From IMG/VR virus record IMGVR_UViG_3300048839_001249, positions 28,689 through 92,688 of that record: 64,000 nt of DNA, one strand, 5' to 3'. Source of the stretch: a virus. The notes below the pieces were generated by a model. It saw only the letters and a list, made by a program, of their open reading frames with translations. It was not told the origin of the DNA and made no database searches. How positions within the stretch are numbered: the stretch's first letter is position 1; the number at the start of each line of letters is the position of its first letter. Positions 27,101-61,616 of the stretch are shown in pieces. A program made the position numbers and the translations under genes.

Positions 27101-30100
27101 AATATGAAAAATCAATTGATGAAAATGTAATTAATAAAGCAAAAGCTCAAGAACTAGTAGACAAGTTTAATACATGGAAAGACAAACATCCATCAAATGA
27201 TGAACTCATTCTTTGGCTTTCAGAAGTAGGTATTACACTTTCAGATCAAACAATCAATCAAATTAGAGAATATGGTTTAGATTTAAATGGTAGAGTACTA
27301 TCATTTAATGATATGTTTGGTGATAGTGAAAAAAGTGCTGGACTATTTGGTGGTATAGCTTATAAATTAAAATTACAAGCTAAACAAGAACGAACAATTA
27401 TAGATGAAAAAGGAAATGAAATTCCTTTCTCTAATATTAAAAACACTATAAAGGAAATTGCAAAAATAGAAGCTAAGTTTTCTAACAGAACTGTTACAAT
27501 TTCTTTCAGGGATGGTGATAAATCTATATCTGGTTTAATACCAATGAGGTTTGCATCAGATAAGATACAAGCATTAAAATGGAATATAGAAGAAAGGAAC
27601 AAAATGTTGAATGATCCTTTCTCCAGACATTCAATGTTACTTAATCTTATTAATAGAAGTAATGATGTAAGAGATGCAGTATATGTTAATCAGCTTGGAG
27701 TAACAGCAATGAAGACAAGAGGACAGTCTTCTGATAGTATATCCATTACTGATTTATCAGCAGAAGATCAGGAGTTTGTACAACTTGGATTCTTTTGGGA
27801 TAGAAGACAGGGAAAAGTACCAGTAAGTTACTGGACATCAGGAAGAAAAAATACATCTATTCCATTAAGAATGGCTAATATGTTTTTTCCTGTCATGAGT
27901 GATAAGTCACAAATGTTATCAATGTATATGCCTGTACTTGATCTCAATAGTGCACATTTTAAAACAACTGAAAATGGTAAAATAATTATTCATGATGATG
28001 TTCTTGCAATATTATTTGAACAATTAGTAAGACCTGAATTAGGAAGAATAATAGAAAATGCTAAAAAATTAAAATCAGGAAGTGAATCTAATTGTGCAGG
28101 TTATGATTTAGGTGCTCAAATATTTCAAATGATTCCAGAACTTAATAATGTAACTGTTACAGTAGAAGGAAGGGAAGTATCATTAGTAAAACTATTAAAT
28201 GAAAATCCAGAAGCATATCCTGAATCATGGGTATTAAATGATCCACAAGCAAAAGAAAGAATTAACAATGTATTACTTGATCTTATTGATAAGGAAGTTA
28301 ATAGTAAGTTAGAAGATTGGAAGAGAATAGGAATAACAAAAGAAAATAAACTGGATGGTAGTCAAGAAGTAGCAAAAATAAGTGGTGAATATTTATCAGA
28401 AACAGGATTTACTGATCTTAAACATATTGCTGCTGACTTTGTGATTAATAATCTAATATCCATGTCAAATATATTTCAGCTTGTTGCTGGTGATTTGGCT
28501 TTTTATTCTCAGGATAAACTATACAATGATTTTGGATATAATAAAGATTTAACAAGAGGCATTGTCGGATTTGAAAATATTAATTCTTATGCTGATCTTC
28601 AAGAAGCATTAAAGTCAGAAAGAGAAAGTCTTACTGATGAACAATACAATTATATAAAAAGTAATGCAAAGCCATTGGCTTATGAACCAACATCAAAAAA
28701 TGCCTATGTCAAGCTCTCAGAAAGCCTTGGAACTAACTTGGGTAAAAGGTTGGCATTGTTATTGACTCCGGGAAAAAGGATTGCCACATCAAAAAATAAT
28801 GCCTATATTCAGGTATTCCTGAATGATGTTGCTGTACCTGCAAGTAATTTCTCATTCCTAATTAAAACCTTTTATGGAAAAGATGCATTGACTGATGAAG
28901 TTAAAGAACTGATTTCTAATAATGATACAAAAGCAATTGTAAGTTTATTTCCAAAATTAAAAGCTTTTGAAAAAATTGACTCAACAGATGCACAAGAATA
29001 TACAACATTACTAGAGCATATTGATGTATTATATGGAAAAGGAAGATTAAGTACTGAGTTATATAACAGAGTAAAAGAAAAAGCATTAAGTCAAATGAAA
29101 GATGGACTTAATGATAACAACAGGATTGATGATGAAGATTTTAGGCTTATTCTTCAACCAATGAAACCTGTTGCTACTGGAAGCATAATGGATGAGAAAA
29201 ATAAAAATCAGAGAATGATCTATATTAAATCATCATCTTTTCCATTATGTGCTCAAATTACAGAAAATACTAACCTTGACAATCTTAGGAAAGTCATGGA
29301 AGAAACTCAGTTGCGTGAAGGAAAATCTGTAAGAGCATGTTACAAAACAGGTGTTAAAGTTGGTGCTACTGTTAGTGGTGTTGATATTTACAAACCTGAT
29401 CTTTCTGTTGACGATTTAATAGGTAGTTCAATTATCATACCTAGAGATAATTTTAAAGTTCAGCAAGATGTACCTGTACATTTTCTTTATGAAAATGAAG
29501 ACAAAATATTAATGGGTACTCAGTTAATGAAATTATTATTTGGTGATGGAGTAACAGAACTTGATATTGAATTTAATGGTAATCCAGTTAAAGGTAGAGA
29601 ACTATTAAATGTATATAATAACACATTTAAACAAATCATAGATACAATAAAGAATGATCTCTTTAAAGAACTTGGATTAAATAAGAATGGTATTCCTGTC
29701 AATCAGGAAGAGTTTATGAGAGCCATTTCTAAAATCTTAAAACGTGAGGCCAAAGAAAGAGGATATTCACAACAAAGTATTGATTCTCTTAGCATCAAAG
29801 CTCAGGTTGATGATTTTGGGATGATAACAGATTTTACTTTTGTGTCTCCATTATGGTCTTCTTCTGATAGTATGAGATTTGAATCATTACTTAATTCTAT
29901 AATTACTAAACGATTAATCAAACTTAAATTACCCGGATATAGTTATGTAGCTGGTAGTCAAACAGGATTTGAGAAAAAATCAGAAGAAGATATTACAAAT
30001 AAATCTGATATTATCTATACTAAATTCTATGATGGTAAAGGATTAAAACCAAAAGATGAAAATGGTAATGCACAAGTATTTTTACCATCAAGATTTAGAG

Positions 30101-33100
30101 ATACTACTGGTAAATTAATTGATCTTTTTGCACAGAATGAAGATGGATATATTTACATAGAAAAAGATGAAAATGGAAACTGGAAATTAAAAGATGGAAA
30201 GATTGCTGATGAACTTTTGAGTATTCCTACATTTCGTATTCCTACATCATCATTAGTATCATCATCTTTTGTTACAATAGCAGGATTTCTTCCTGTTACA
30301 TCAGGTGACTTGATGATTGTACCAAAAGAGCTTATTACTCAGAAAGGACTTGACTTTGATATTGATAAAGAATATGGTTATCATTTATGGCATTATACTG
30401 ATGAACAAGGAAATATAGCACCTATTGAACAGTTAACCACATTAGAAAATCTTGATGATTTTATCAGTAGTGGTCAAGAATGGTTAGGACAAGTAAAAAG
30501 AGCAGTGTCTAAAGATCAGTACATGCTAAAGAAAATTCAAGAAATGGAAGAAGAAAATTCTGTTCTTGATGAGTTAGATGAAGAAGAAATGTATGATGTA
30601 GAAGATATTATGGAAGAGTTTGATAACTTTCTCCATAAAAAATCAAATTACAGCATGCAAGACATAGAAAAAGGTATTAAAGATTTAAAGTACGCAAAGT
30701 CATTAAAAAGAAAGCTTCTCGAAAATCAAATAATCAGAATACATAATGCTGTAATATCAAGTAAAAATCCTGAAATAGAAAGAAAAGTTAATTCAGTTCT
30801 ATCAATGGAATTTGCTAAACAACAAGCAAGTATGCTTGAACAAGAAGATAAAGGATTTACAACTATACTTAGTGATAGATACCAAAGAAAAAAAATGAAT
30901 TTGGGAAGTGCTGGTAAAATGGGTATTGGTGTATATTCTAATGCAGTAACATTAAATTCACTTATTCAACAATCAGATTCACCTATTTCATTAATTGTAA
31001 ATACTGATGAAGGTAAATTACCATTAAGATTAAAAATAGGTAATCATGAATTTAATGGTAATCTTGGAAGATATATATCTATCATTCAGTCAGGTCAGTT
31101 AAATGAAATATTTAAATTAATAACTGATGAAAAGTTAAGACAAAGAATTAGAGATGGTAAAATATCATTAACTGAATTATCAAAAGTTATAGATAATGCT
31201 GGTGGAAATTCTACAATATTATTAAACGGTATAAGAACCATTACAGAAGTTTTTGCTGAACGTCAAAATACTGCTACTGATAATGAAAAAGAACAGATCA
31301 TGGGTCGTTGTCATGTTAATGATATGACAATTAATGTTGACTGTTTATTATCATTAATGGGATTTGATAAAGGAAATGATATTATTGACATAGATGGAAA
31401 TCAATTACCAGCATCAATATCTTATTTGATTTTATCACAACCTGTCATAAAAGAATATGTACAGGAAATGAAGAAAGCAAAATCAAGAACTGGTGCATAT
31501 GCTAGTGAGGAAGAAATTATAAATAAAATTTTTGAAAAATATCAGGTTAGTGATAAACAGGTTACTGTAACCAGTTTAGATACACAAACATTATATGATA
31601 ATATTTTCAAACAAACCGCCAGTGATGTTCAGGTTGCAGTATTTAACTTGTTTCTTAATCTTAATGCTACATCAAAAAAAATGGGTAATATCCAAAAGAT
31701 ACTTGGAATTACTGGTGGAGGCCCAAATGCAGGATTAGGTAAAAGCATATTTGATACTAATTCAAAATTTAAAAGAATCATTCAATTAGTATCAAATCAG
31801 AATGATAATGAAATACATATAGCTAATGTTAAAAAACTCATAGGTGATTTTATCCATATAAAAGATTTAGAAACATTTGGAGATGAAAAGTCTGATAATC
31901 CTATTGCAATAGCTAGAGCAGAAGGTTACATTGATTTTGGTGAATATATGATAAAACCAACAACAGCAATTGGTCACATGATTGTTAATAGTGTGCAAAT
32001 TGGATATGATACATGGAATCAATTCTTTCCTTTTGAACATCCAGTAATTAACAAAATCATGGATGAGATAATGAGATTGCAAAAAAGTGATACTACAAAA
32101 TGGGGAGATGCTAAAATTATCGAACTTAAAAGAAAGATTATTAAAGAAATACAGAAAATGCTATTCTCAAATCCTGATTATGGTGTTATATCAGGTAATT
32201 CAACAACAGAAAGGAGAAGGCTTTTTAAAGATACTGAGGATAAACCATCATTAGCAAGTTATTTACAGAAACTTGTTGATGATAAAAATCCTGAAATCAT
32301 AGCAAATGAACTTATTAAGAAAATGAAGTTTGACATTAAACCTAATAAGATAGCAGATGTATCAAGAATTATATTTGATAATACAGTAGAGAATGATTTT
32401 GATGAAGAGTATTTACATAATTCATTTTATGATTTACTTTATAATGAAAGACCACTTCCTGATAATATATCATTTGATCCCGGAATAAAACATGCTGAAA
32501 ATCCAATGACATTTGGAAAGAACAGTTCAGAATTAATTGTTGCAGGAAAAAAGAAGTTAGATATAAGAGAATCTCATAATGAAGAATTTGTACAAGGTGA
32601 ACCATTAATTCAGATTATTAATGGTCAAAGATATAAGATCACATATCTTGGAAATATTAATCAGAATGATCTGAATATACATTCAGGTAAATCTGTAAGT
32701 ATTAACAATGAACTTGGTAAATCACAATTAAATCCTATAGAAGCAAAATTTGCACAAGGAGAATCAAAACATGTATATAAGATTGAAGCTGTATATACTA
32801 CAACTCAATTAGCTAAAGACCTCATTGCATATTCTTATCTCAGTGGTGGTATTCAAGGAGCTATTGAATTTATAAAGTACATACCATTAAGTTATCTTGA
32901 AACATCAGGTTTATTATCCGCAATGAGAGAATTTGATATTAATGATGATAATACATTTGCTAATGAATTAGGAACAACAATTGATGGTATTTTGAGTAAA
33001 ATGACTGTTCAATATTATCAGCATAATCCAGAAGAACTTCCTACAATGTCATTGAAAGATGCTGGACTTAGTGCTGTACCAGTTGATGAAATATTCAGTT

Positions 33101-36100
33101 TTGCATCTAAAAAGGAAAATTCATCACCAATGATTGCTATACCTTTACAAAAAAGTGACTACATGGTATTTTTACTTGGTTCTGATAATGTTTATTATAG
33201 AATTCATGCTCTTGGTACTCATGGTATGAGTGAATACAATATTCAAAAGTATAATCCTAATTCAATACTTACTGATCGTGCTCAACCTCAGATGTTAACC
33301 AAACTTGAACCATCAAGAAGAAGATTATCAAATAAAAATGTAAATACATTTGGTATTGAAAATGGTGATTCCAGAGCAGTACTGGAAAGGATAGCAAAAG
33401 AAGGTAATGAATATGAAAAGAAGCTCGCTACTGAATTATTAAAATATGATAATGATGTTAAACTAACTGTTGAAAATATTTATGCAGCAGGAGTTTATAG
33501 TCATAATAATCATACTATCACTATCAGTACTAAAATTCTTTCACCTATAAGTAAGAAATGGTCATTAGGAAATAACAATAATCAAGATAAGATTGCTTCT
33601 GTGTTTTTGCATGAATATATACACAGTTTGACAGCAAGAGAACTTAATAATTATTTTGATGATGAAGGTAATCTTATTGTTGATAATCCTCCACAATATA
33701 TTGTAAATCTTCAAAAAATATTTTTACAAGCAAGAACAAAACTTAATGTTAACAGAAATAATGTTAATGATGTAAGAAATAAAATGAACAATAGTACTAT
33801 ACTTACAGAAGATGAGAGAGGAAGAATATATCCTTTTGTAAATGTAGGAGAATTTGTTGCACAATTAATGTCAACAGACACTCAGTTCAGAGAAAAGCTT
33901 GCTGAATTACAATATGAAGGTGAAGATAAATCATTACTTGATAAGTTTAGGGAATTCATTAATGATCTGTTAAATTCACTAGGTGTAAACACTGATGAAA
34001 ACATGTTAAAAGCTGCTCAGATTGCTACATTAGATTTTATAGCCAGTGAAAATGCACCTGTACAAGAATTACCTGAACTTACAGAAGAACCTTATTATCC
34101 TATTATGGGTGAAGAAGATGAACCTTTTGTTGATATTTTAAATCCAACACCTCCAACCAGACCTGAAATGAAATATCGTCTATTAGCACAGCAGCAATCA
34201 GATGATATGAATTATATTGAATTCTTGCATGATGCTACATCTGGATTTGTTTACAGACTTGTTACAACTCCTGATGGCAAATTACAAATGAATAAAGCAA
34301 ACTTAAATGATAAGAAGTTTTCTCCTGTAGTAGGTGATGAACTTAATGCACTTACCAGTGGATCAATTAAGGAATTTATAATCAAGGAATTTGGTAGTGA
34401 TGTATGGCAGAAATTAAAACCTGTTAAGAAAGAGGTTACAAGACCTAAGAAGATCATCTCTGGTGCACAAACTGGTGGTGATAGGGGTGCATTATTAGGT
34501 GCAAAAGAAATAGGTATTGAAACTGGTGGAAAAATGCCAAAAGGTTTTAAAACTGCAGAAGGTAGCAGACCTGATGTTGCTAAAGAATTTGGATTATCAG
34601 AAACAAATTCAGCAGATTATCCACAAAGAACAATGGAAAATGTAGATGATTCTGATGGAACAATGGCAGTTCTTTGGGGAAATAGTGTGGGTACTGGTAA
34701 AACAATTGGATATGCACAAAATCATACTTGGGGATATGGAAATAATAAATCCAAGGATGATGGATACAGACCCGTGTTAGTAATTACTACACATGATGTT
34801 AAAGAAGCTGCACAACAATTAAAAGATTTCATTAAACGTAATGGTATTGAAACTCTTAATGTAGCTGGACATAGAGAAGGTAGTCAGCCAGGTATTCAAG
34901 AGTTTACTCGTCAAGTAATTGTTGAAGCATTTAAAGAAGAAACTACAGAACAAGAAACTCAAACTAGAGAATACACACCTGATAATATAACTTCTTTAAA
35001 ACCTAATGAAATATTTGTATTTGGTAGTAATGAAGGAGATTCTAGAGGTGGTAAGCCTACACATGGTAGAGGTGCAGCTAAAACTGCAAGAGAAAAATTT
35101 GGTGCTATTCAAGGACAATCTAGGGGATTACAAGGACAGTCTTATGCTGTAGTAACAAAAAAATATTGGGATATTGAAAAATCTTCTACTCTTGATGAAA
35201 TAAAGAAAGAACTTACAGCTTTTGTTTACTTTGCACATGAACATCCTGAACTTAAATTTTATGTTACTAAGTTAGGTAGTAGTTTAGCTGGATATTCAAT
35301 AAATGAAATAAAGCAATTATTTGAAAATATACATCAATATTCAGGTCAAATCACTGATAATATTATTCTTCCTAGAGAATATGAATTTAGAGATGATGTA
35401 AAATCCACAGAACAACAAGAAGAGGAAACTCAAGAACCAGATATGGGAATAAATCCATCCAACCCTACAACTAATGGTAAAACATTACAGGGTGAACAAG
35501 TAGAAGCTGCACAGAAAGCTGACAGATGGTTTGCTAAGTTGAAAGAAAAGACCAATGATATTATGAATGCCAGATCATCAGGAATACTGGAAGATGATAT
35601 TATTAATAATTTCATGTTTCTGCTGAGTGGTAAAGGTGGTACTGGTAAAACATTCACTACAGAAGTTATCTTGAAGCAGCATGTTGAAGGAAGAAAAGTA
35701 ACCTATGTTGCACCAACACATCAAGCAAAGAATGTACTTACTGAAAATATGGAGTCAGGCTCAGCTAGTACTTTACAATCATTGTTAGGTTTGAAACCAT
35801 CAAAAGATCAGCGTAAAAATGAATTTTATGCATTATCAATGCATGAAGTTGCAAAAATTTACAATGCAGGTACAATGCAAATTCCATTTTTTGATACTGA
35901 TATTATTGTAATTGATGAAGCATCACAATTAGGTTATGGAAAATTATCATCTCCTGAGATGTTAAGAGATTGGACTGGCACATCTTATGAAAGTCAATCA
36001 GTACATTATGATCCTGCATTAGGTACTTACTTAATGGAAATGATAAAGCTTAAATATCAGCTTACTGGAAGATTAACAACAGTATTTATGATGGGTGATA

Positions 36101-37245
36101 TTGTACAAACTGTACCTATTAATACTGATAAATATCAAATAAGTGAATTATTGGAAAGAGTTATTAAATCTGATAATTTTGCAGAACTTGAAAAAGTAAG
36201 AAGAGTTGATGATAAAGACATTTTGAATTATAATCAACAATTCAGAGATGCATTCTTTGATATTTACAAATCAGAAGATAGGAAAAAGATTGTTCCTCCA
36301 TTGAAAAGATTATTACTTTCTGGTAATTTTAATAGTAAAAACTTAAAGAAACTGGATAATGCTAATCAAATGGTTGATACATTTGTAGAACATTATCAGG
36401 AAAATATAAGTAGTGAGACACCAAATCCAAATCATACTGTTATTATTAATTACAATGCTGCTCACAGGCCAGAAAGCATGCTGCTAACTAATAACATCAG
36501 AAAGAAATTATTTGGTGAAGAAGGTGCTCAAAATTATTATAACAAAAATGAGTTAATACTACATCAGGGAAGTTATGAATATACTTATGGTGGTAGAACA
36601 TTTAATATTGAAAATGATGATAAGTTAATTATTCAATCTGCTACAGAAGAAACTCAATCAATTGATGTTGGTAAGAATAAAATGTTTAATGTTGATGTAC
36701 TGTGGATGAGTGTAACTGTAAAAAATCCTGTACATGGATTAATTACTATTCAAGTTCCATATATGAAACCTGAAACAAAAGCTGAGATTAATAAATATTG
36801 GGAAGAAGCAAGAGCAAAAAAGGAAAACCCTGGTGCACAATCTACTACTCAATTCAGAAGTCTTAGAGCCAATGAAATGTTTACTGTCATGAGAGCATTA
36901 AACAAATTCAATTATGGTTATGTTGTTAATAACTATAAAATTCAGGGAAGTGGAATTGATTATCCTATTGTAGATGCTCAAAATATTCTCTCGGCAGGTA
37001 AACATACTGATCCACTGCATCTTACAACTTTTATTTATACTGCTGTTAGTAGAGTAAGAAAAAAGATGTATATTTACATTGAAGGAGCACCCACCATACC
37101 TATTATTAAAGATACTGATTCTCAAGACAATAAAGAAGGTATGGATGATATTTCCTCTGTAGAGTCAGAATTTGACTTTATGCTACTCGAAAACATTGCA
37201 AGAGCATTTCCAGAAAAATTTGAACAAAAAAAGTGTAACCTATGA
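21145..37245 (+). CDS. Giant polyprotein: virion RNA polymerase, zincin, SLOG, macro-like and SF1 helicase domains
   Basis: A 5366-residue protein in one open frame. Residues 1-1000 are mostly helical, with an Ala-rich amphipathic stretch near 290-330. The RNA polymerase core has the catalytic motif DFDID at 3070-3074 (KGLDFDIDKEYG), the signature described for the crAss-like phage phi14:2 RNA polymerase; the surrounding region (about 2700-3110) is the likely double-psi barrel. A metallopeptidase motif HEYIH lies at 4156-4160, with a possible third ligand Glu4236 (NVGEFVAQL). From about 4437 comes a SLOG/YpsA-like domain (IISGAQTGGDRGALLGA). From about 4620 comes a macro-like phage domain (FVFGSN...GRGAAKTAREKFGA). 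From about 4820 to 5345 comes an SF1 RecD/Dda-like helicase: Walker A GKGGTGKT (4829-4836), IDEAS, and AVSR near the end. It overlaps the neighbours at both ends by four bases. It is probably packaged, then injected to transcribe early genes; cleavage into parts is likely but unproven. Confidence 0.85.
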   Translation: MRPNLHDLIKNAHVAKEEKKEEPKQPSFIASSKTLDAASDTVSDELTEYRQLKDDFYKAIKEQQAINTEEKITSDISAGKYLVKGWYKTMVNGGLLLPQMVLGSPDAFKDFALGALSTTPEDIVNYAFEAYRFLHGVDEKDVQEFEARKNTFASLAKATSDKLNPVNMIASSLDSQGSESLFSLKDSDLDKAIENIPEFLKNDFSISPIGTVANLLLPEGQRWDKNTVQHLADIQANFNARQYEETPIDSVFDKSVWGNENLGIIEKLSQGIAYSSLDPTKRESLIYLLNTAPEGVASLAASISQMALTGNALKLAGVPANLIKKIQAVSGSVGEATVIAKDVENKIKEQKLEELVGEDWKKASEQAFEQAFQEAKANGENDRFAEEAGNQAKRELINQFLASEDNADIRRKVEDAAFRGRNITVGINLLTTGTNYIQVSTTLKNLERLGTKVGINAAQETIEGGTRNILAKPFVIGTSNLYNAKATLKNLGIGLENFGTEAIEEGLINPMAERFGIELGMDREYRMGDFWKEVKAGEYLDDAFWGGIFGHGAYHGGAAANSIKGAFSYKSRKKAYEAQQEILKQWDKISKAAGTDLLSELVNLNDNIHTIAKLDRAAKKAEQEGNIELAKSIEERKITVQAGKAFKSGTTEKLLEAYQTIADNTENTQIRDHALNAIQKVKKLEKLYTNAAKKEYLNVEEVFMNTAQNDQLNNNLNEMNLMLRQAKASAEQVLTSIQKDYNAIFAITENGIVFDGEQKQEFKDAVLNDAAISQFQKIFIAKEILSAAITKNLQSFAKITSKGYQQEIQRINEVASSIRRNKNLFTLEDKKDFMREVELVMAQKNLKEVNKEQIRKVFAKEYDVFNVQKQLVESLAARSKNKDATPPKKGIASVFSKFRNRIEAKRKKKSHLSVAKKEKVDMLPAELDEEMDDATKQVIKEQMAELISNEGDNPTFEQLINTAIQSLEGETAEDTKKTIEEDFNVYVLGWRLNNKELTDEEAVRVYNKFFTKRTRLSTSITKKAKKTQQEKTEPPIELEKVIGQEIANEVVTEQEIKKPVNPVAVQRLGIPTVAWITVDDIIEGKDSNDIISHRLADPTRNNPGDPVTVVAYNEQEEKGNYKGKITFPNGKKGNIFTFWENKLSPRTSHSVTGTEDSSSTTTVKERGNKITFEEKHKVSNNKKVIKLYKTYDNKKDKITEHFLVKDDQDVATLNADNIQEVRLYSINLSDTGEAVLKLKIIHNDDTTETKDIVTYNDKNNYQPLLIKDSEGNNLAWVASPKYTAMDRATMLRTAEFRRKVINAGGTFQTTIAKKIPQSQGGVVHSHTINNTPLSEVCPTAIPTVYKDGAFRIGEESFENEERVITNLDRINPSSGYTYDMRLIGYNEKGQQEYIACANKMMPELAPEAFSTVMWVLKTYLSKHDKNQSLSSEITKEQSQKIIDFFKKNFKIDVTSQNGLEQILSMFINLGSAATREKTQLSDGNISPKRFEEYLNSQPKGKPVLLMSNTNLFFGVAGQKINGENYVILSTGTAEKGLDRVSVNRIKAAMQALVATGSKLPLSNNIKMAGNEMPMPIIDNNGNPSTKGKYSDWLKTRLLTTTRATKLKWKDKDGNDIYTSRHTAVIELNEEQAIPVKPTERIEPKPDDESLIEEKTQDEITLIKKLQVAFTELGITDLNSLLDTVDYLPESQEDAFLRTVNPIPGVNLQQLHEMVNNLFNRVVSEHNNERFTDEQIRSYTKGKELFEKHILPTREKYIKLIQEVTQLYETDPVKYSNFSFILMSIQNRLNIYDVIEEHFSEVETRVAERLRKYSGIKIEGEDQTGDEQDKVYSKSSEENLLKDSITSELRRFFAGITDVNEKGTVYGFLGLENHVNFNKAFDTVASILGTAPTSSMNFTDAINILSEYTDAYPWMEGFINKIKDADEQMKNMFIYNCVNQNLNMKFLMYYWEKGQLQTRVYDTNSSEISNIIRDGWVSGFMKSDLVKYEKSIDENVINKAKAQELVDKFNTWKDKHPSNDELILWLSEVGITLSDQTINQIREYGLDLNGRVLSFNDMFGDSEKSAGLFGGIAYKLKLQAKQERTIIDEKGNEIPFSNIKNTIKEIAKIEAKFSNRTVTISFRDGDKSISGLIPMRFASDKIQALKWNIEERNKMLNDPFSRHSMLLNLINRSNDVRDAVYVNQLGVTAMKTRGQSSDSISITDLSAEDQEFVQLGFFWDRRQGKVPVSYWTSGRKNTSIPLRMANMFFPVMSDKSQMLSMYMPVLDLNSAHFKTTENGKIIIHDDVLAILFEQLVRPELGRIIENAKKLKSGSESNCAGYDLGAQIFQMIPELNNVTVTVEGREVSLVKLLNENPEAYPESWVLNDPQAKERINNVLLDLIDKEVNSKLEDWKRIGITKENKLDGSQEVAKISGEYLSETGFTDLKHIAADFVINNLISMSNIFQLVAGDLAFYSQDKLYNDFGYNKDLTRGIVGFENINSYADLQEALKSERESLTDEQYNYIKSNAKPLAYEPTSKNAYVKLSESLGTNLGKRLALLLTPGKRIATSKNNAYIQVFLNDVAVPASNFSFLIKTFYGKDALTDEVKELISNNDTKAIVSLFPKLKAFEKIDSTDAQEYTTLLEHIDVLYGKGRLSTELYNRVKEKALSQMKDGLNDNNRIDDEDFRLILQPMKPVATGSIMDEKNKNQRMIYIKSSSFPLCAQITENTNLDNLRKVMEETQLREGKSVRACYKTGVKVGATVSGVDIYKPDLSVDDLIGSSIIIPRDNFKVQQDVPVHFLYENEDKILMGTQLMKLLFGDGVTELDIEFNGNPVKGRELLNVYNNTFKQIIDTIKNDLFKELGLNKNGIPVNQEEFMRAISKILKREAKERGYSQQSIDSLSIKAQVDDFGMITDFTFVSPLWSSSDSMRFESLLNSIITKRLIKLKLPGYSYVAGSQTGFEKKSEEDITNKSDIIYTKFYDGKGLKPKDENGNAQVFLPSRFRDTTGKLIDLFAQNEDGYIYIEKDENGNWKLKDGKIADELLSIPTFRIPTSSLVSSSFVTIAGFLPVTSGDLMIVPKELITQKGLDFDIDKEYGYHLWHYTDEQGNIAPIEQLTTLENLDDFISSGQEWLGQVKRAVSKDQYMLKKIQEMEEENSVLDELDEEEMYDVEDIMEEFDNFLHKKSNYSMQDIEKGIKDLKYAKSLKRKLLENQIIRIHNAVISSKNPEIERKVNSVLSMEFAKQQASMLEQEDKGFTTILSDRYQRKKMNLGSAGKMGIGVYSNAVTLNSLIQQSDSPISLIVNTDEGKLPLRLKIGNHEFNGNLGRYISIIQSGQLNEIFKLITDEKLRQRIRDGKISLTELSKVIDNAGGNSTILLNGIRTITEVFAERQNTATDNEKEQIMGRCHVNDMTINVDCLLSLMGFDKGNDIIDIDGNQLPASISYLILSQPVIKEYVQEMKKAKSRTGAYASEEEIINKIFEKYQVSDKQVTVTSLDTQTLYDNIFKQTASDVQVAVFNLFLNLNATSKKMGNIQKILGITGGGPNAGLGKSIFDTNSKFKRIIQLVSNQNDNEIHIANVKKLIGDFIHIKDLETFGDEKSDNPIAIARAEGYIDFGEYMIKPTTAIGHMIVNSVQIGYDTWNQFFPFEHPVINKIMDEIMRLQKSDTTKWGDAKIIELKRKIIKEIQKMLFSNPDYGVISGNSTTERRRLFKDTEDKPSLASYLQKLVDDKNPEIIANELIKKMKFDIKPNKIADVSRIIFDNTVENDFDEEYLHNSFYDLLYNERPLPDNISFDPGIKHAENPMTFGKNSSELIVAGKKKLDIRESHNEEFVQGEPLIQIINGQRYKITYLGNINQNDLNIHSGKSVSINNELGKSQLNPIEAKFAQGESKHVYKIEAVYTTTQLAKDLIAYSYLSGGIQGAIEFIKYIPLSYLETSGLLSAMREFDINDDNTFANELGTTIDGILSKMTVQYYQHNPEELPTMSLKDAGLSAVPVDEIFSFASKKENSSPMIAIPLQKSDYMVFLLGSDNVYYRIHALGTHGMSEYNIQKYNPNSILTDRAQPQMLTKLEPSRRRLSNKNVNTFGIENGDSRAVLERIAKEGNEYEKKLATELLKYDNDVKLTVENIYAAGVYSHNNHTITISTKILSPISKKWSLGNNNNQDKIASVFLHEYIHSLTARELNNYFDDEGNLIVDNPPQYIVNLQKIFLQARTKLNVNRNNVNDVRNKMNNSTILTEDERGRIYPFVNVGEFVAQLMSTDTQFREKLAELQYEGEDKSLLDKFREFINDLLNSLGVNTDENMLKAAQIATLDFIASENAPVQELPELTEEPYYPIMGEEDEPFVDILNPTPPTRPEMKYRLLAQQQSDDMNYIEFLHDATSGFVYRLVTTPDGKLQMNKANLNDKKFSPVVGDELNALTSGSIKEFIIKEFGSDVWQKLKPVKKEVTRPKKIISGAQTGGDRGALLGAKEIGIETGGKMPKGFKTAEGSRPDVAKEFGLSETNSADYPQRTMENVDDSDGTMAVLWGNSVGTGKTIGYAQNHTWGYGNNKSKDDGYRPVLVITTHDVKEAAQQLKDFIKRNGIETLNVAGHREGSQPGIQEFTRQVIVEAFKEETTEQETQTREYTPDNITSLKPNEIFVFGSNEGDSRGGKPTHGRGAAKTAREKFGAIQGQSRGLQGQSYAVVTKKYWDIEKSSTLDEIKKELTAFVYFAHEHPELKFYVTKLGSSLAGYSINEIKQLFENIHQYSGQITDNIILPREYEFRDDVKSTEQQEEETQEPDMGINPSNPTTNGKTLQGEQVEAAQKADRWFAKLKEKTNDIMNARSSGILEDDIINNFMFLLSGKGGTGKTFTTEVILKQHVEGRKVTYVAPTHQAKNVLTENMESGSASTLQSLLGLKPSKDQRKNEFYALSMHEVAKIYNAGTMQIPFFDTDIIVIDEASQLGYGKLSSPEMLRDWTGTSYESQSVHYDPALGTYLMEMIKLKYQLTGRLTTVFMMGDIVQTVPINTDKYQISELLERVIKSDNFAELEKVRRVDDKDILNYNQQFRDAFFDIYKSEDRKKIVPPLKRLLLSGNFNSKNLKKLDNANQMVDTFVEHYQENISSETPNPNHTVIINYNAAHRPESMLLTNNIRKKLFGEEGAQNYYNKNELILHQGSYEYTYGGRTFNIENDDKLIIQSATEETQSIDVGKNKMFNVDVLWMSVTVKNPVHGLITIQVPYMKPETKAEINKYWEEARAKKENPGAQSTTQFRSLRANEMFTVMRALNKFNYGYVVNNYKIQGSGIDYPIVDAQNILSAGKHTDPLHLTTFIYTAVSRVRKKMYIYIEGAPTIPIIKDTDSQDNKEGMDDISSVESEFDFMLLENIARAFPEKFEQKKCNL

Positions 37246-46622: not shown

Positions 46623-47258
46623 TTAACTGTTTGTGAGACTTATTTCCATTAGATTATTCTTTATTCTTTGGTTTATCATTTCCAAATCATTTACAGTTTT
46701 AATTTTTATTTTAAACTGATATGGAATAAAGCAATAATTTTGAATTTTATTTGTCATAATTACATCATAATAATTTCTAACATCATAAAGCAAACCTTTA
46801 TTTATTATCCAACTAGTTAATTTTTTATATTCGAAAATTTCACTATTAACTAGTATTTTAATATGGTCAGAACTAATGAAAAAATTTTCACCTGACAATA
46901 ATTTTGCCATTATTATTGATGATGAGTTTATTGCTGCAAGTAAAACTATTTCATTATTAACTGATATATATCCATATCCATATTGAATTGTAATATTGTC
47001 CGGTGAATAAAAAATTGTGGTTGGACTACACCATTTATCATTATAATTCCTTAATGCTGATATTTTTTTTGTTGATGTTCTTATAGAATTAGCTATTATT
47101 TTAGATGAATAATATAACTTTTCATTTATTACCATTCCTTCATTTAATGCATATAATGGTATTAATTCATTATCACTTGAACAGCAGATATTACCAACAT
47201 CATAATGATATTTTATGGGATTAAATTGTATGGGATTAAATTGTATGTAATTTATCAT
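46623..47258 (-). CDS. Unknown protein tied to the Ubl cassette
   Basis: A 211-residue protein of unknown family. It is Ile/Asn-rich, alpha/beta, with a beta-rich middle (NITIQYGYGYISVNNEIVLL). It starts with the duplicated segment IQFNPIQFNP. The start overlaps the E1-like stop by four bases, so it is translated together with the conjugation genes. It could be a target, adaptor or E3-like partner; no zinc or RING pattern is seen. Codon usage looks like that of its neighbours. Confidence 0.6.
   Translation of the reverse strand: MINYIQFNPIQFNPIKYHYDVGNICCSSDNELIPLYALNEGMVINEKLYYSSKIIANSIRTSTKKISALRNYNDKWCSPTTIFYSPDNITIQYGYGYISVNNEIVLLAAINSSSIIMAKLLSGENFFISSDHIKILVNSEIFEYKKLTSWIINKGLLYDVRNYYDVIMTNKIQNYCFIPYQFKIKIKTVNDLEMINQRIKNNLMEISLTNS
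47217..47246 (-). repeat. 15-bp tandem duplication at a gene start
   Basis: GGGATTAAATTGTAT occurs twice in direct succession at 47217-47231 and 47232-47246. It encodes the repeated IQFNP pentapeptide at the start of the 211-residue protein and stays in frame. It looks like a slippage duplication. Confidence 0.85.
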
Positions 47259-47935
47259 AGTACAATATCAGTTTTTAATAATGGTACAAAATATTCATAG
47301 TAAAATGGTACAGTACGATATTTTTCTCCTGTTATGATATTAGCTGCATGATTTGTTAAAAATGCTGTCATTAAGCTTGCTATCATTGCTGCTGTATGTG
47401 ATGTTTGTGTTGTTGTGCAACTTAGATTTTCAACATCTTCATCACCAAATAAGAAATTTTCCTCATAGCGTTTCATTATTTCAGGATCAGTAGTAACACA
47501 AAATATTTGAATTTGCTCAAAAAGTAATCTTCCATCAATTAATAATGCATTTTGATCATTTTGATTATTTTCTTTCCATCTATGATACATTATTCTTCTT
47601 GCTTCCATATTATCAAATCCTGATAACATAATAGAAGATGTTATTGATGTTGTATCATACTTGGCATTTACTCCTTGTATATTAATTTTTGAAAAATCAG
47701 AAACATTGTTTTTTAATGCTACTATTTTTCTATCACCTACTTGTGACCATCTAACAAATTGTCCACCAACATTGTGTTCTTCAAAAATATCATCATCAAA
47801 TACTATACATACTATTCCTATTCTCGAAAGAAGTAATGTAAGCCATGATGAAATTCCACCTGCACCACCCACAATAATCTTTTTTCCTTTTAAATATGGA
47901 TACCATATTGCATCTTTAAATCTATCATTGTACAT
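47255..47935 (-). CDS. ThiF/E1-like Ubl-activating enzyme
   Basis: A 226-residue protein with the ThiF/E1 adenylation fold. Nucleotide loop GGAGGISSW lies at 23-31, acidic residues at 47-49 (FDDDIFEEHN) bind ATP ribose, NVGGQF at 55-60 takes the place of the N..RQ motif, Lys70 or Lys75 lies in the usual lysine position, GFDNMEARR at 106-114 is the conserved D-N..R motif, and Cys173 (LSCTTTQ) is the catalytic or crossover Cys. Known members adenylate the C-terminal Gly of ThiS, MoaD or ubiquitin-like proteins. It lacks the zinc-binding CxxC pairs of ThiF, so it resembles cassette E1s rather than housekeeping ThiF. It overlaps the JAB gene by 11 bases. Confidence 0.85.
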   Translation of the reverse strand: MYNDRFKDAIWYPYLKGKKIIVGGAGGISSWLTLLLSRIGIVCIVFDDDIFEEHNVGGQFVRWSQVGDRKIVALKNNVSDFSKINIQGVNAKYDTTSITSSIMLSGFDNMEARRIMYHRWKENNQNDQNALLIDGRLLFEQIQIFCVTTDPEIMKRYEENFLFGDEDVENLSCTTTQTSHTAAMIASLMTAFLTNHAANIITGEKYRTVPFYYEYFVPLLKTDIVL

Positions 47936-49007
47936 ACTTTTTCGTTTTAAAGTTAGCTTTTACAAAATCATTAATCAACTTTTCCATTATTTTTACTATT
48001 GGGTATTTTATGGATTTAAGTGCTTTTAAATATTCATTTATTACTTCAATTGGGTCAATTGGTTCTCCAGGAACATAGTAATTTAATATGTCTTCTGCAA
48101 GATTGTTAACAGCTAGAGTCATTAATTGAATGGCTTCTTCTCTATTATCATGATTTTGTAATATTGAAAATGCTTGATCTGCTGTATGAACCATAGCATC
48201 AATTTCCATAATACTTTCTGCTTCCAGATTATAACATATAAAGTCATCAATATTAAGTTTATCTGAATCTTTACTTGTAATTTTTTTGTTTTGATTTTTT
48301 GGAAATACAAATTCATCAGATACCGAAGAATTTTTTCCAAAACCTATTACATTATTGTGAGATGTTTGTACTGCAACAACTTTTGTCTTTTTATTTATTT
48401 TTTCATATCTATCTGAGAATTGTGATCCAACTTCATGTTGAATATCAGCGACAAACTTGCAGTCATAAGTACATACACTTAGTATTTGGTTTTTTATTTT
48501 AAGGTTGTAATATTCACCATTACCCTTTCTTGCTTTGATTGTAGACATTGGTTCTATCGTAAATGCAATTTTACCTTTCATTTCCAGAAATGTATTTACA
48601 ATTACTGAAAGATAAAAATTATGATGTTCAGCATTTTCTACAAGCTCATCTAAGTCTGTACCTGAAAAGAATACACTCATCAGATTGTGGCTATGAATAT
48701 GTCCCATTTTCCAACTCAGTGAGTCAGGATTATTCATTCTGAATTCAACAATAGATTTATCCAGTTTATAGTCTGTTGCTGCACCTGTTCCTATATCCAT
48801 TAAAAAGATATATTGTAATACTATTAACATATTTTTAGGTTTATCTATATCACCATCAACGGTGTAAAATAATATACCTGACCATTCTTTTTGTGGAACT
48901 TTTGAAACAAGATATTTTACTTGTTCTGAAAATCTCTTGGTTATAGAAACTTTTACCTGACTTTCAAGAGGGATTATTTTTAGATTTTTTTGTTGCATAA
49001 TATTCAA
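47925..49007 (-). CDS. JAB/JAMM metallopeptidase of the Ubl cassette
   Basis: A 360-residue protein. The N-terminal 160 residues are a JAB/MPN domain with a complete JAMM site: Glu41 (KEWSGIL), then His105-Ser-His107 followed seven residues later by Ser115 and Asp118 (HIHSHNLMSVFFSGTD). JAMM enzymes use zinc to cut isopeptide or peptide bonds after a Ubl Gly. The C-terminal ~190 residues are helical (EIDAMVHTADQAFSILQNHD) and have no known domain, perhaps a partner-binding region. The start overlaps the E2-like stop by 44 bases (an alternative ATG at 48998 gives 357 residues). Likely job: to mature the Ubl or remove it from targets. Confidence 0.85.
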   Translation of the reverse strand: MNIMQQKNLKIIPLESQVKVSITKRFSEQVKYLVSKVPQKEWSGILFYTVDGDIDKPKNMLIVLQYIFLMDIGTGAATDYKLDKSIVEFRMNNPDSLSWKMGHIHSHNLMSVFFSGTDLDELVENAEHHNFYLSVIVNTFLEMKGKIAFTIEPMSTIKARKGNGEYYNLKIKNQILSVCTYDCKFVADIQHEVGSQFSDRYEKINKKTKVVAVQTSHNNVIGFGKNSSVSDEFVFPKNQNKKITSKDSDKLNIDDFICYNLEAESIMEIDAMVHTADQAFSILQNHDNREEAIQLMTLAVNNLAEDILNYYVPGEPIDPIEVINEYLKALKSIKYPIVKIMEKLINDFVKANFKTKKYVQ

Positions 49008-50070
49008 GCATTTTAAAATTTAATATTCCGTTTAATGTTTCAATAATAATAGTTTTTACTAATGGATGTATAGTTAATACTGGATTTTCTATCAATTTTC
49101 CATATACAATTGTTTGCAATTCTTTATTGTTAAACATTATTTCATATTTATGAGTATATGTTTTGTCGTTGGTTATTACATTAATGTCATAGTATTTACC
49201 TTTACTTTCTAAGTATGAATAATCAGAAAAATGATAGCTTAAAAAATTAATAAGATATTCATCTTCTATAATTTCATATCTCATTTTTTCATAAGAAAAT
49301 TCAAAATTGATGTTTTCATCTGAGATTAAAGTAAATTTAAATAAATCTATACATTTAAGTTGTATATTTCTTTCATTTATAGAATTCAATATTACTTCGT
49401 TTCCATAATCTTTTATAGTCTCAATTTTTATATATGGAACTCCTTCAAGTGATTCCCATGATAAGTAAGGTTCAATTTGAAGTAAAAGTAATGTAAGCAA
49501 TTCATTACTAAATAAATTTGGAATTTTCAACTTGTTTACTAATGTTGAAAGTTCGTCATTACCAATACAAAAATTAGCAGAAAATAATGTTTGTATAATT
49601 GATAAACTTTGTACTGGTAAATGACTGTGTATATAACCATTTACAAATTCTCCATTACTAAATGTTGTTCTTATTCCTTTTATTTTTTGAATTGAAAGTC
49701 CGTTTTTATGTTCAAAATTTATTATTACATATAGGTCTTTTATTTCATTTTTATCATTATTTGTATTTGTTATAGTGATGTTATCATATTTAATGATTAG
49801 TCTTAATGAAAACTGTATGTGAAATTTCATATGATATTCATATACTATGTATTCATAAGCATCATGTAAATCATTATTCTTACAATTATGTGAATATAAT
49901 TGAATTTCAAATTGATTATCATCAAATACTTTACTTGCAATATTAAATATTGTTTCCCAATCATCAGCCATACTTTTTTCACATCTATTTTTCAAATATA
50001 AATATTCAATGGTTTGTCTGTTGATTATATTTTCCTTGTTTATTTTTTTAATAAATTCATATACATACAT
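48964..50070 (-). CDS. E2/UBC-like Ubl-conjugating protein
   Basis: A 368-residue protein. The centre reads as a ubiquitin-conjugating fold: beta-strands (FHIQFSLRLIIKYDNITITN), then GYIHSHLP at 145-152 in the place of the E2 HPN-type motif, then Cys168 in FCIG where prokaryotic E2s have C-[LIW]-G, followed by helices and LSWESLEG near 210. A ~150-residue C-terminal extension is beta-rich. It lies directly before the JAB gene, and the E1-like gene follows, which is the strongest support for the call. Sequence similarity to known E2s is low, so a structure prediction would decide. No RING-type E3 is visible nearby. Confidence 0.75.
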   Translation of the reverse strand: MYVYEFIKKINKENIINRQTIEYLYLKNRCEKSMADDWETIFNIASKVFDDNQFEIQLYSHNCKNNDLHDAYEYIVYEYHMKFHIQFSLRLIIKYDNITITNTNNDKNEIKDLYVIINFEHKNGLSIQKIKGIRTTFSNGEFVNGYIHSHLPVQSLSIIQTLFSANFCIGNDELSTLVNKLKIPNLFSNELLTLLLLQIEPYLSWESLEGVPYIKIETIKDYGNEVILNSINERNIQLKCIDLFKFTLISDENINFEFSYEKMRYEIIEDEYLINFLSYHFSDYSYLESKGKYYDINVITNDKTYTHKYEIMFNNKELQTIVYGKLIENPVLTIHPLVKTIIIETLNGILNFKMLEYYATKKSKNNPS

Positions 50071-50077
50071 AATATTT

Positions 50078-50115
50078 AAAAATTAAAAAAGGGGAAATGC
50101 AGTATCTCCCCCTTT
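50078..50115 (-). terminator. Terminator between Ubl and E2 genes
   Basis: A 7-bp stem (AAAGGGG at 50088-50094 with CCCCTTT at 50109-50115) is followed on the minus strand by a T-rich run (TTTTTTAATTTTT pattern). It lies 20 bases after the Ubl stop and just before the E2-like start. It would lower transcription of E2, JAB and E1 relative to Ubl. Confidence 0.65.
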
Positions 50116-50135
50116 ATTATGAATGAAATTATTTT

Positions 50136-50858
50136 TTACAGACCAAACTCTCTTTTGATTCTTTCAGCATCATCTTTGAGTTTCTTCTTTTGTTCAGCAG
50201 TAATAATTGCTGATTCTTGGATTGCTGGTTCACCGGGATGTTTTGCTATGAAATCATTGAGTAATTTTTCTGCATCATTTAAGAATGATATTGCAGTTTT
50301 GATTGGTTCAAGGTCAATTGGCTCTGCTGTTGTTTTTTCAACAGCTTTTTCAATAACTTCGTCAATAACCTCTTCAGTTACTTCCTCAGTTACTTCTTCT
50401 TTGACCTTTTTAGGTTTTTCAGTTTTCTTTGGCTTTTCTTCTGACTTTTTGGTTTCTGATTTACCAGTCATTTTGTTGAGCCATGCTTTGAGCAAATTTT
50501 TCATTTCATCTGTGGATTTGTTTGTGTAATTTTTGTCTTTATTGAAGTGCTCAGCAGCTTCTTTGTTTTCAGCAATAGTTTCTTTAATTGCACTTCTCAA
50601 ATCCTTGTAGCTCATTTTGTCGACATCCATTCCACTTTTTACCTTGATAGGCATCAAAAAAAGTGTAAATTTGTCACTTGGAAGTTCAGCATTTGCAACT
50701 TCAAGTGTATGTCTGTTTTCACCAATAACAGCTTTCATGTTCTTGTGACTTACTCCATTTTCAGTAAGTACACCTTGGAGTTCTCCCCATGTTTTAGCAT
50801 TGCTACTGATGATTTTACCATCTTGTCCTGATGTTGAATAAATTGTGATTGTTCTCAT
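50136..50858 (-). CDS. Ubiquitin-like (beta-grasp) modifier with C-terminal extension
   Basis: A 240-residue protein. Residues 1-76 fit a ubiquitin-like beta-grasp: strands RTITIYS and GKIISSN, helix WGELQGVLTENG, strands MKAVIGE and HTLEV, and a final strand KFTLFLMPIKVKSG ending at Gly76. It continues for about 164 residues: a helical part, a Lys/Glu-rich linker with repeats (EEVTEEVTEEV) and a final helix (KKKLKDDAERIKREFGL). No terminal Gly-Gly is present, so activation would need cleavage, for which the JAB peptidase is the obvious candidate, or the Ubl works as a fixed domain. It sits four bases after UDG and upstream of E2, JAB and E1. Confidence 0.75.
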   Translation of the reverse strand: MRTITIYSTSGQDGKIISSNAKTWGELQGVLTENGVSHKNMKAVIGENRHTLEVANAELPSDKFTLFLMPIKVKSGMDVDKMSYKDLRSAIKETIAENKEAAEHFNKDKNYTNKSTDEMKNLLKAWLNKMTGKSETKKSEEKPKKTEKPKKVKEEVTEEVTEEVIDEVIEKAVEKTTAEPIDLEPIKTAISFLNDAEKLLNDFIAKHPGEPAIQESAIITAEQKKKLKDDAERIKREFGL

Positions 50859-60240: not shown

Positions 60241-60495
60241 TTATTCTATTATGGTTAGTGTTTTTACAATGTTTTTATTGACTTCTGTATTATTTTGAAG
60301 TATAAAACATTCTCTAAATAAAGAGTAGTTTGTTATCATAAGAGTATCATTATTAATGACAATCTTCTTTCCTACATAGCTTTTCATCTCTGTATCTGCA
60401 TTTGTTAGCTTGTTAGTTTTTGTAATTATAATATACATAAAAGATACTGCAAGTATGATAGCTAATATAATTAATACTTTTGTTATTGTACTCAT
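60241..60495 (-). CDS. Small membrane-anchored protein
   Basis: An 84-residue protein with one N-terminal membrane helix (VLIILAIILAVSFMYIII), followed by a polar beta-rich part (KIVINNDTLMITNYSLFREC) probably outside the inner membrane. It lies one base before the lipoprotein start and overlaps the upstream enzyme gene by four. The pair could form an envelope complex, such as superinfection exclusion; this is inference. Confidence 0.6.
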   Translation of the reverse strand: MSTITKVLIILAIILAVSFMYIIITKTNKLTNADTEMKSYVGKKIVINNDTLMITNYSLFRECFILQNNTEVNKNIVKTLTIIE

Positions 60496-61616
60496 ATTAT
60501 TGGTTTTATGTTACTAGATACTGGTGATTCACTTATATATGTTACTGGAATTTTCAATACTTTTGCAATGTATTTTACAAATTCCTCTTTTGTGGATAGT
60601 TTTACAACATTATTTTGATGTGATAGTAGATATTCTTTTAAATGATCTACACAAGTTACAACAAGTATCTTATTGATAAAATCATTTATAAGTCTTTCAG
60701 AATATAGTGCATATTTCAGTAAATCAACATCTAACATTGACTTTCTGAATTCTCCCTGATAATTGCTGACATTAGTTTCATCTGGATTGTCAATTATATG
60801 ATCTGAAAATTCTGTGGTCATTGGCCCGTTTCCATGTCTTGTTTGATAAGCTCTTGTAACAAGATAAATTTGAGTGTTATGTTGAGTAAATTTCATAATA
60901 TTACTTAATCCTGTATTTGATCTTGTTACATGTGGAAAAAAGCCAATATTCTGATCAAGCATAAGTCCTTGGCTACCTTCAAATATTACATTAGCTTCAT
61001 ATATTCCATCATTTATTTTGCTAATCTTTGATAATCCTTTGATTTGATTTTCAAATACTTTCCAGTTAATATTAATACCAATATTTGATATATCATAACC
61101 AAATTCTTTAATCATCTTAGCATTATAATAGTTATAAATGAGTTTGAATTTCTTTTTTGCTATATTTGGAAATAGTAAGTCTCCTGCCAATAAATGATAA
61201 TGGTCTTCTTCTCTTTGAATTGTTGTTCCTACACCAACACCAACACTACCATGACCCATACGATCATTATACATTTTATTGTATATTTTATCAAAGATTG
61301 TTGTTACAGGACAACTTTTGTCAATGAGTAATTTTGGTATATTACTCATTTTAGTTTGTAGTGAATAGTACTCATTGATTATGCTTACAGGATCAATTAC
61401 TATTTCTAACAAATATGTAGGTATTCTTCTTAGTGTTCCTGAACCATAGCTTGAGAATATATGTTTAGTATTATCATCTAATACCACAGTATGACCAGCT
61501 TGATGTCCACCAGAAAATCTGATTACAGTTTTATAGCTTCCTGTATTTGCAAGCCAATCTGTAACTAAACCTTTACCTTCATCTCCGAATCCTAATCCTA
61601 TTACTGCTGCTTTCAT
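60492..61616 (-). CDS. Divergent adenylosuccinate synthetase (PurA-like)
   Basis: A 374-residue protein of the PurA family, shorter than bacterial PurA (about 430) and similar in size to archaeal forms. GFGDEGKG (Asp12) and GGHQAGHT (His42) keep the catalytic Asp and His; FEGSQG and VTRSNT keep the Gln and Thr for IMP; RAYQTRHGNGPMTTEF matches the AYTTR.G.GPFPTE block. Changes: TTGRGIGP reads SVGVGVGT, the Arg reaching in from the partner subunit (Arg143 in E. coli) becomes His, and the Arg-rich aspartate loop (TGRRRR) is replaced by NYQGEFRK. Normal PurA joins IMP and aspartate with GTP; the altered pockets suggest a different nucleotide or acid. It is not typical PurZ, which has Ser for the catalytic Asp. 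Confidence 0.85.
   Translation of the reverse strand: MKAAVIGLGFGDEGKGLVTDWLANTGSYKTVIRFSGGHQAGHTVVLDDNTKHIFSSYGSGTLRRIPTYLLEIVIDPVSIINEYYSLQTKMSNIPKLLIDKSCPVTTIFDKIYNKMYNDRMGHGSVGVGVGTTIQREEDHYHLLAGDLLFPNIAKKKFKLIYNYYNAKMIKEFGYDISNIGININWKVFENQIKGLSKISKINDGIYEANVIFEGSQGLMLDQNIGFFPHVTRSNTGLSNIMKFTQHNTQIYLVTRAYQTRHGNGPMTTEFSDHIIDNPDETNVSNYQGEFRKSMLDVDLLKYALYSERLINDFINKILVVTCVDHLKEYLLSHQNNVVKLSTKEEFVKYIAKVLKIPVTYISESPVSSNIKPII

Follow-up and report, generated by a model that had tools for sequence, protein, structure and literature searches.

A candidate ubiquitin-like conjugation operon conserved in the replication module of crAss001 and related phages

Cassettes that combine a ubiquitin-like protein (Ubl), an E2, a JAB protease and an E1 occur in bacterial operons and on plasmids, several of them in anti-phage defence, and phage-encoded Ubls are known from tail assembly. 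The Bil/Bub-type and CBASS Cap2/Cap3 Ubl systems are cellular defence operons. In the PRTRC plasmid operons, described as operon type 6d of Iyer 2006 (PMC1779556), protein C is a Prok_Ub, B a Prok-E2_D, A a Prok-JAB and ThiF the E1. We analysed a 64,000-nucleotide stretch of viral DNA, referred to here as the window, which covers positions 28,689-92,688 of the IMG/VR record IMGVR_UViG_3300048839_001249 (92,688 bases in total). A first-pass annotation made from the sequence letters had proposed that four adjacent minus-strand genes in the window encode these same four kinds of parts, and all four open reading frames (ORFs) are indeed present. In the direction of transcription they are a Ubl precursor gene (50136-50858, 240 residues), a gene for an E2-like protein (48964-50070, 368 residues), a JAMM metalloprotease gene (47925-48998, 357 residues from an ATG at 48998, with a TTG start at 49007 also possible) and the gene of an E1/ThiF-like enzyme (47255-47935, 226 residues). 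The overlaps proposed among the last three are real (35 bp for E2/JAMM and 11 bp for JAMM/E1). A fifth gene on the same strand, here called gene X (46623-47258, 211 residues), overlaps the E1 gene by 4 bp and had been missed in the four-gene description. We consider it likely that this operon forms a self-contained and reversible phage Ubl-conjugation cascade, expressed together with the replication genes.

The PRTRC operons are the closest described relatives, and the first-pass annotation had named them together with Bil/Bub-type systems. Both the phage and the PRTRC cassettes are carried by mobile elements in the order Ubl, E2, JAB, E1, and both have a Gly at the C-terminal end of the Ubl. 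When five phage families were aligned with six PRTRC families using hhalign, the phage E1 matched PRTRC ThiF with a probability of 98.4 (5e-15), and the phage JAMM matched PRTRC protein A with a probability of 93.5 (2e-7). This shared order, together with the E1 and JAMM matches, argues for common ancestry. The resemblance extends by eye to the candidate catalytic Cys of the E1 (Cys173), whose context C-[TS]-x-x-Q-T recalls the S-C-S found in 9/9 PRTRC ThiF proteins examined. Plain membership in PRTRC was ruled out by the E1 score, which reached 35.3 bits against a TIGR03736 cut-off of 144.75. Neither the phage Ubl nor the E2-like protein gave a Pfam or NCBIfam match to Prok_Ub/PRTRC C or Prok-E2_D/PRTRC B. 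By hhalign, similarity of the phage Ubl to PRTRC C was not detectable (probability 0.2), and the best of the six families for the E2-like protein was B, over the Cys motif only (E 0.04, probability 1.4). The phage cassette also lacks the F gene that PRTRC operons carry between Ubl and E2, has the additional gene X, and bears a tail on every Ubl. Since the family cut-offs are failed and F, X, the Ubl tail and the E2 all differ, we set the cassette apart as a separate phage variant, related to PRTRC and PRTRC/Bil-like in design. No PRTRC-type ParB was named in the neighbourhoods read, although no search was aimed at ParB. In three of the PRTRC plasmids (L178, L185 and L192), dnaN, the sliding clamp gene, lies within ~10 kb of the operon.

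Scans of IMG/VR with E1 and JAMM alignments returned 233 and 376 relatives, respectively, and the best 80 of each were taken; hidden Markov model (HMM) searches then covered 171 loci plus the window, and merging of duplicates left 98 distinct genomes. In every locus, the Ubl, E2-like, JAMM and E1 genes detected shared a strand and kept a constant order. All four were detected by HMM in 92/98 distinct genomes and in 93/98 once the diverged Ubl of one genome (L024), recognized by reading ORFs and carrying ..DTKGG plus a tail, was counted. The cassette in the remaining five (L115, L135, L124, L052 and L069) is cut by contig ends. The four genes are clearly conserved together, contrary to the lack of joint conservation that the first-pass annotation had named as a refutation, and the invariance of their catalytic residues over ~100 diverse genomes rules out a chance pile-up of motifs. 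The order primase, Ubl, E2-like, JAMM, E1, X, UDG recurs in crAss001, DAC15, cr85, cr111, cr128, bajarodcaudo virus 1 and Dulem virus 41, while Flavobacterium phage FpV4 has the order of the window, with UDG ahead of Ubl. In the deposited records the cassette genes are named 'thiamine biosynthesis protein', 'metalloprotease' or 'hypothetical', and two records read 'E1 enzyme family' or 'ThiF family'.

The crAss-like setting proposed in the first-pass annotation holds for crAss001, DAC15 and others but does not extend to crAss002 (Intestiviridae), in which the cassette was not found. In a scan of one bacterial genome per species, it was likewise not found outside three phage-like contigs, which excludes a cellular gene cluster. 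We conclude that the cassette belongs to some lineages (Steigviridae, Flavobacterium phages and environmental relatives) and not to all crAss-like phages. The three contigs come from metagenome-assembled genomes named Clostridium and Spirochaetia (L172, L173 and L174) and probably represent misbinned phage sequence; L172 and L174 carry all four genes, and L173, cut by a contig end, carries only E1 and X. A tblastn search of plasmids with the E1 gave no useful match. We found no account of this cassette in the open-access literature searched, which does not prove that none exists, and a 2021 crAss survey mentions neither ubiquitin nor ThiF nor JAB.

The identities of the JAMM protein and the E1 are secure. 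The E1 is the one member of the four window proteins that exceeds the cut-off of a general family (Pfam ThiF, 7e-11, 42.2 bits against a cut-off of 28.1), and the PHROG matches of all four are to families of unknown function. As a profile the E1 found UBA5 as its best relative in the PDB (6e-13). Its GxGGI loop (G24, G26, G27) and residues D47, D49, Q59, K70 and D108 are conserved at 0.98-1.00 (conservation figures are based on 102-107 distinct sequences per family), and Cys173 (codon 47417-47419), a candidate for the Ubl-thioester Cys on grounds of sequence, is present in all but truncated sequences. Both the GGAGGISS loop and the Cys of the proposed ThiF/E1-like enzyme are therefore conserved. 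The window JAMM protein alone scores under the Pfam Prok-JAB cut-off; its profile found CSN5 in the PDB (E 0.006), and the motif E-xn-H-S-H-x7-S-x2-D is conserved at 0.99-1.00 in ~106 sequences, with only truncated sequences as exceptions. The residues first listed as Glu41, His105, His107, Ser115 and Asp118 were counted from the TTG and correspond to E38, H102, H104, S112 and D115 from the ATG.

The N-terminal domain of the Ubl can be assigned to the ubiquitin (beta-grasp) fold with security at the level of a structural model. An AlphaFold model built with 64 sequences (pLDDT 84) gave a confident N-terminal domain, for which Foldseek against the PDB returned ubiquitin, ISG15, FAT10, SUMO, TtuB and Caldiarchaeum ubiquitin at probabilities of ~0.97-1.00 and target TM values of ~0.55-0.69. 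The core (residues 1-76, 50631-50858) ends in ..I-K-V-K-S-G76, and the boundary first placed at Gly76 was borne out, since this residue is found in 102/102 distinct relatives, preceded by K74 (0.95) and S75 (0.94). Mean pairwise identity is 38% in the core vs 18% in the tail. Gly76 is terminal in no phage Ubl; the tail that follows it measures 1-252 residues, with a median of 132. In nine Ubls a true stop lies 1-5 codons past the Gly (KSG-E, KSG-K, KSG-R, KSG-I, AAG-Y, AAG-H, KSG-NKN, KSG-EVV and KAG-KNVRL), and a JAMM gene is present in each of these genomes. Judging from these nine short Ubls, the content of the tail appears to be dispensable, yet some tail is always present. Eukaryotic ubiquitin precursors likewise carry a tail past the Gly.

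We compared this pattern with the PRTRC plasmids. In loci without a JAB gene, 9/9 Ubls end in ..[KRN]G and 0/9 have a tail, whereas tails occur in 4/6 loci with JAB (Fisher p 0.011, a value that overstates independence because several of the loci are close Pseudomonas relatives). In the Xanthomonas jumbo phage PhiXhv-15, whose cassette includes a homologous E1 and shows no JAB, the candidate Ubl ends directly in ..ASGG. Together, the invariant but non-terminal Gly76, the short tails, the PRTRC tail/JAB pattern and PhiXhv-15 point to the JAMM as the protease that probably matures the Ubl by cutting at ..KSG, with predicted removal of the helical C-terminal extension (residues 77-240, 50139-50630). 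Within this extension, residues ~84-131 (50475-50610, minus strand) form a confidently predicted helical domain after KSG that has no counterpart in the short Ubls; the motif K-N-[YFW]-T recurs in this domain in many relatives.

The Ubl and the E1 could instead serve sulfur transfer. If the E1 thiolated Gly76 for sulfur delivery, as with ThiS, MoaD and TtuB, the JAMM would trim the Ubl and no tagging would follow. JAB-processed sulfur carriers exist, models of ThiF and MoeB pick up the E1 as well, and TtuB is among the Foldseek matches of the Ubl. Against this, Ubl and JAMM are always separated by an E2-like gene with a conserved Cys, the operon encodes neither a rhodanese nor a sulfur enzyme, and gene order as well as E1/JAB homology point to PRTRC. 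We therefore regard a sulfur carrier as quite improbable and favour conjugation.

The E2-like protein is the least certain component. The first-pass annotation had pointed to the motifs HSHLP and FCIG with Cys168 (codon 49567-49569). Ser149, His150 and Cys168 of the Y-x-H-S-H150 motif and the following loop proved invariant, but His148 varies (H 87, Q 13, F 6); His150, Cys168 and Gly170 are each conserved at 0.99, and the exceptions for His150 and Cys168 are truncated sequences only. In an AlphaFold model built with 84 sequences (mean pLDDT 82), a helix (32-48) is followed by four strands (54-62, 85-101, 107-121 and 125-138), the HSH...Cys168 loop and two further helices (173-182 and 189-203). 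A four-strand beta-meander with flanking helices is how prokaryotic E2s are described as having first been recognised (PMC1779556), and the model contains the same elements. The E2 assignment therefore draws on the invariant Cys, the (H)SH...C-x-G motif, the predicted topology and the operon position. It is probable rather than demonstrated, because no E2 appeared among the Foldseek matches of the model in the PDB and no E2 family was matched in a Pfam search with 84 members. The earlier E2 proposal has the order of E2-type elements and the invariant Cys in its favour, and finds no E2 match by sequence or by Foldseek against the PDB. A PDB sequence search with the profile gave only a chance match to a zinc finger. 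Searches of the record with the Prok-E2_B, PRTRC B and JAB families returned nothing, and Prok-E2_B and PRTRC B were also silent in every control genome.

If the 368-residue protein instead had another fold, such as an adaptor or an inactive JAMM-like domain, then the operon would consist of Ubl, JAMM and E1 only, possibly with attachment straight from the E1. The HSH motif common to this protein and the JAMM, the missing E2 matches and the low overall identity among family members are compatible with such an arrangement. H150, C168 and G170 are nevertheless invariant, the four-strand meander is predicted ahead of the Cys loop, the slot between Ubl and JAMM is that of PRTRC B, and a jumbo-phage counterpart with HPH..GSLCLG also precedes an E1. 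On balance we judge a non-E2 protein unlikely and retain the E2 assignment as the probable one.

In the window, the gap that separates the Ubl stop from the E2 start contains a hairpin resembling an intrinsic terminator (50115-50087, minus strand). Terminator-like hairpins were found at this place in 76/94 genomes; dinucleotide shuffling leads one to expect 1.0, and a control segment of the same length taken from the E2 gene gave 0. Their sequences vary among genomes while position and form persist. Clear examples occur in crAss001, DAC15, FpV4, cr85, cr128 and the bajarodcaudo virus; the gap is too short for one in cr111 and Dulem virus 41. Three Burkholderiales PRTRC loci (L179, L184 and L190) share this arrangement, with a textbook intrinsic terminator in the gap that separates the Ubl gene C from F. 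The simplest reading of the predicted hairpin is attenuation, by which modifier transcripts would exceed enzyme transcripts. At the other end of the operon, an ORF of at least 140 residues starts at the gene X position after E1 in 89/91 genomes. Gene X evolves fast, and its equivalence in the window is positional only, since sequence similarity among relatives is weak. An Rfam scan gave no match.

Other described Ubl systems are more distant. Bil/Bub-type and CBASS Cap2/Cap3 systems are built from all or some of these four kinds of components, and the phage E1 has its adenylation domain in common with PADLOC E1-E2 models and Cap2 structures; no Bil-named model was among the PADLOC matches of the cassette. 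Cap2 fuses E2 and E1, whereas the phage cassette encodes them as separate genes, is found only in phages and lies in a replication module. The lambda/T1 tail module likewise has a phage-encoded Ubl (TAPI) and JAB (TAPK, JAB plus NlpC/P60), and a cut at the final Gly of its Ubl domain has been proposed (PMC1779556). As described there, that module contains no E1 or E2, belongs to the tail genes and fuses JAB to NlpC/P60. Identity with TAPI/TAPK was ruled out by the replication-module location, the absence of an NlpC/P60 match in the JAMM protein and the presence of an E1.

A second kind of phage Ubl cassette is suggested by E1 matches in the jumbo phages PhiXhv-12, PhiXhv-15, PhiXhv-16 and Erwinia phage Ep032, whose E1 is homologous to the crAss-type E1 (28-30% identity over ~70%). 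Its genes were read in PhiXhv-15 (L186, 4712-8591), where the candidate Ubl, an 892-residue protein with HPH..GSLCLG and a ThiF/E1 follow one another with no JAB between; unlike in the crAss-type cassette, the E2-like region lies inside this longer protein. By hhalign neither the phage Ubl nor the E2-like protein matched the jumbo-phage proteins, and a scan of viral contigs for relatives of the jumbo-phage E1 gave nothing useful.

From these observations we infer the following cascade. The Ubl would be synthesized in precursor form and then cut after Gly76 (..K-S-G) by the phage JAMM. The E1 would adenylate the freed Gly76 and take the Ubl as a thioester on Cys173, from which it would be passed to Cys168 of the E2-like protein. 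This protein, perhaps with the gene X product as adaptor, would join the Ubl to lysines of one or more targets, and the JAMM may also remove it again. With the terminator-like hairpin behind the Ubl gene, transcripts of the modifier would be able to exceed those of the enzymes.

The location in a replication block, also part of the earlier description, was confirmed: around the cassette the window encodes a DNA polymerase, an SF2 helicase, a DnaB-like helicase, a Sak4-like annealing protein, a primase, a UDG and a PD-(D/E)XK protein. Because the cassette adjoins DNA polymerase, helicase, primase, UDG and exonuclease genes, its targets are most likely phage or host proteins in genome replication, repair or takeover. 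In crAss001 the replication genes are reported to be switched on at 10-30 min (PMC8375218), and given its position among them the cassette would share this timing. Several points weigh against the cascade as proposed. The targets are deduced from gene position, the short 226-residue E1, like ThiF, MoeB and PRTRC ThiF in size, has no ubiquitin-fold domain for E2 binding, and the absent E2 matches and the partly related PRTRC loci described above count on the same side. We hold only tentatively the fuller picture, in which a core replication-module system (KSG-trimmed precursor, JAMM, E1, a new E2 family and a conserved terminator that sets modifier above enzymes) acts as the viral equivalent of replication control by SUMO and ubiquitin, placing a reversible tag on replication or host proteins during infection.

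The same conjugation chemistry could instead serve counter-defence, by tagging host immune or housekeeping proteins or by disturbing host Ubl defence. The cassette is confined to phages, and bacterial Ubl systems act against phages, as reported for CBASS Cap2 (PMC10097602). The nearest relative, PRTRC, is accompanied by ParB and, in three loci, has dnaN nearby, which speaks against this reading. Counter-defence genes are usually gained and lost, unlike a cassette that keeps a single site within the replication module across very diverse genomes. We assign counter-defence a low probability and prefer tagging linked to replication.

If the cascade operates as proposed, then bacterial viruses, including phages of gut Bacteroides, themselves use ubiquitin-like tagging, and the crAss001 genes labelled 'thiamine biosynthesis' and 'metalloprotease' would be explained. 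The carriers, phages from the gut and from the environment, make up a large group that includes the cultured crAss001 and DAC15. These two make the proposal testable, since digestion of conjugates with trypsin would mark each modified lysine with a diagnostic Ser-Gly remnant. The association of Ubl tails with JAB genes would further provide a general, testable rule of Ubl maturation across PRTRC and phage systems.

Two further features of the window lie outside the cassette. An adenylosuccinate-synthetase-like gene (60492-61616, minus strand) matches PHROG 1211, named 2-aminooxy adenylosuccinate synthetase; its product may be PurZ-like, and if so this would be a hint that the phage DNA carries a modified base. 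On the plus strand, one uninterrupted ORF of 5366 codons spans 21145-37245, and another of 1647 codons comes after it; the two may encode giant polymerase-type proteins of the sort that crAss-like phages are known to carry.

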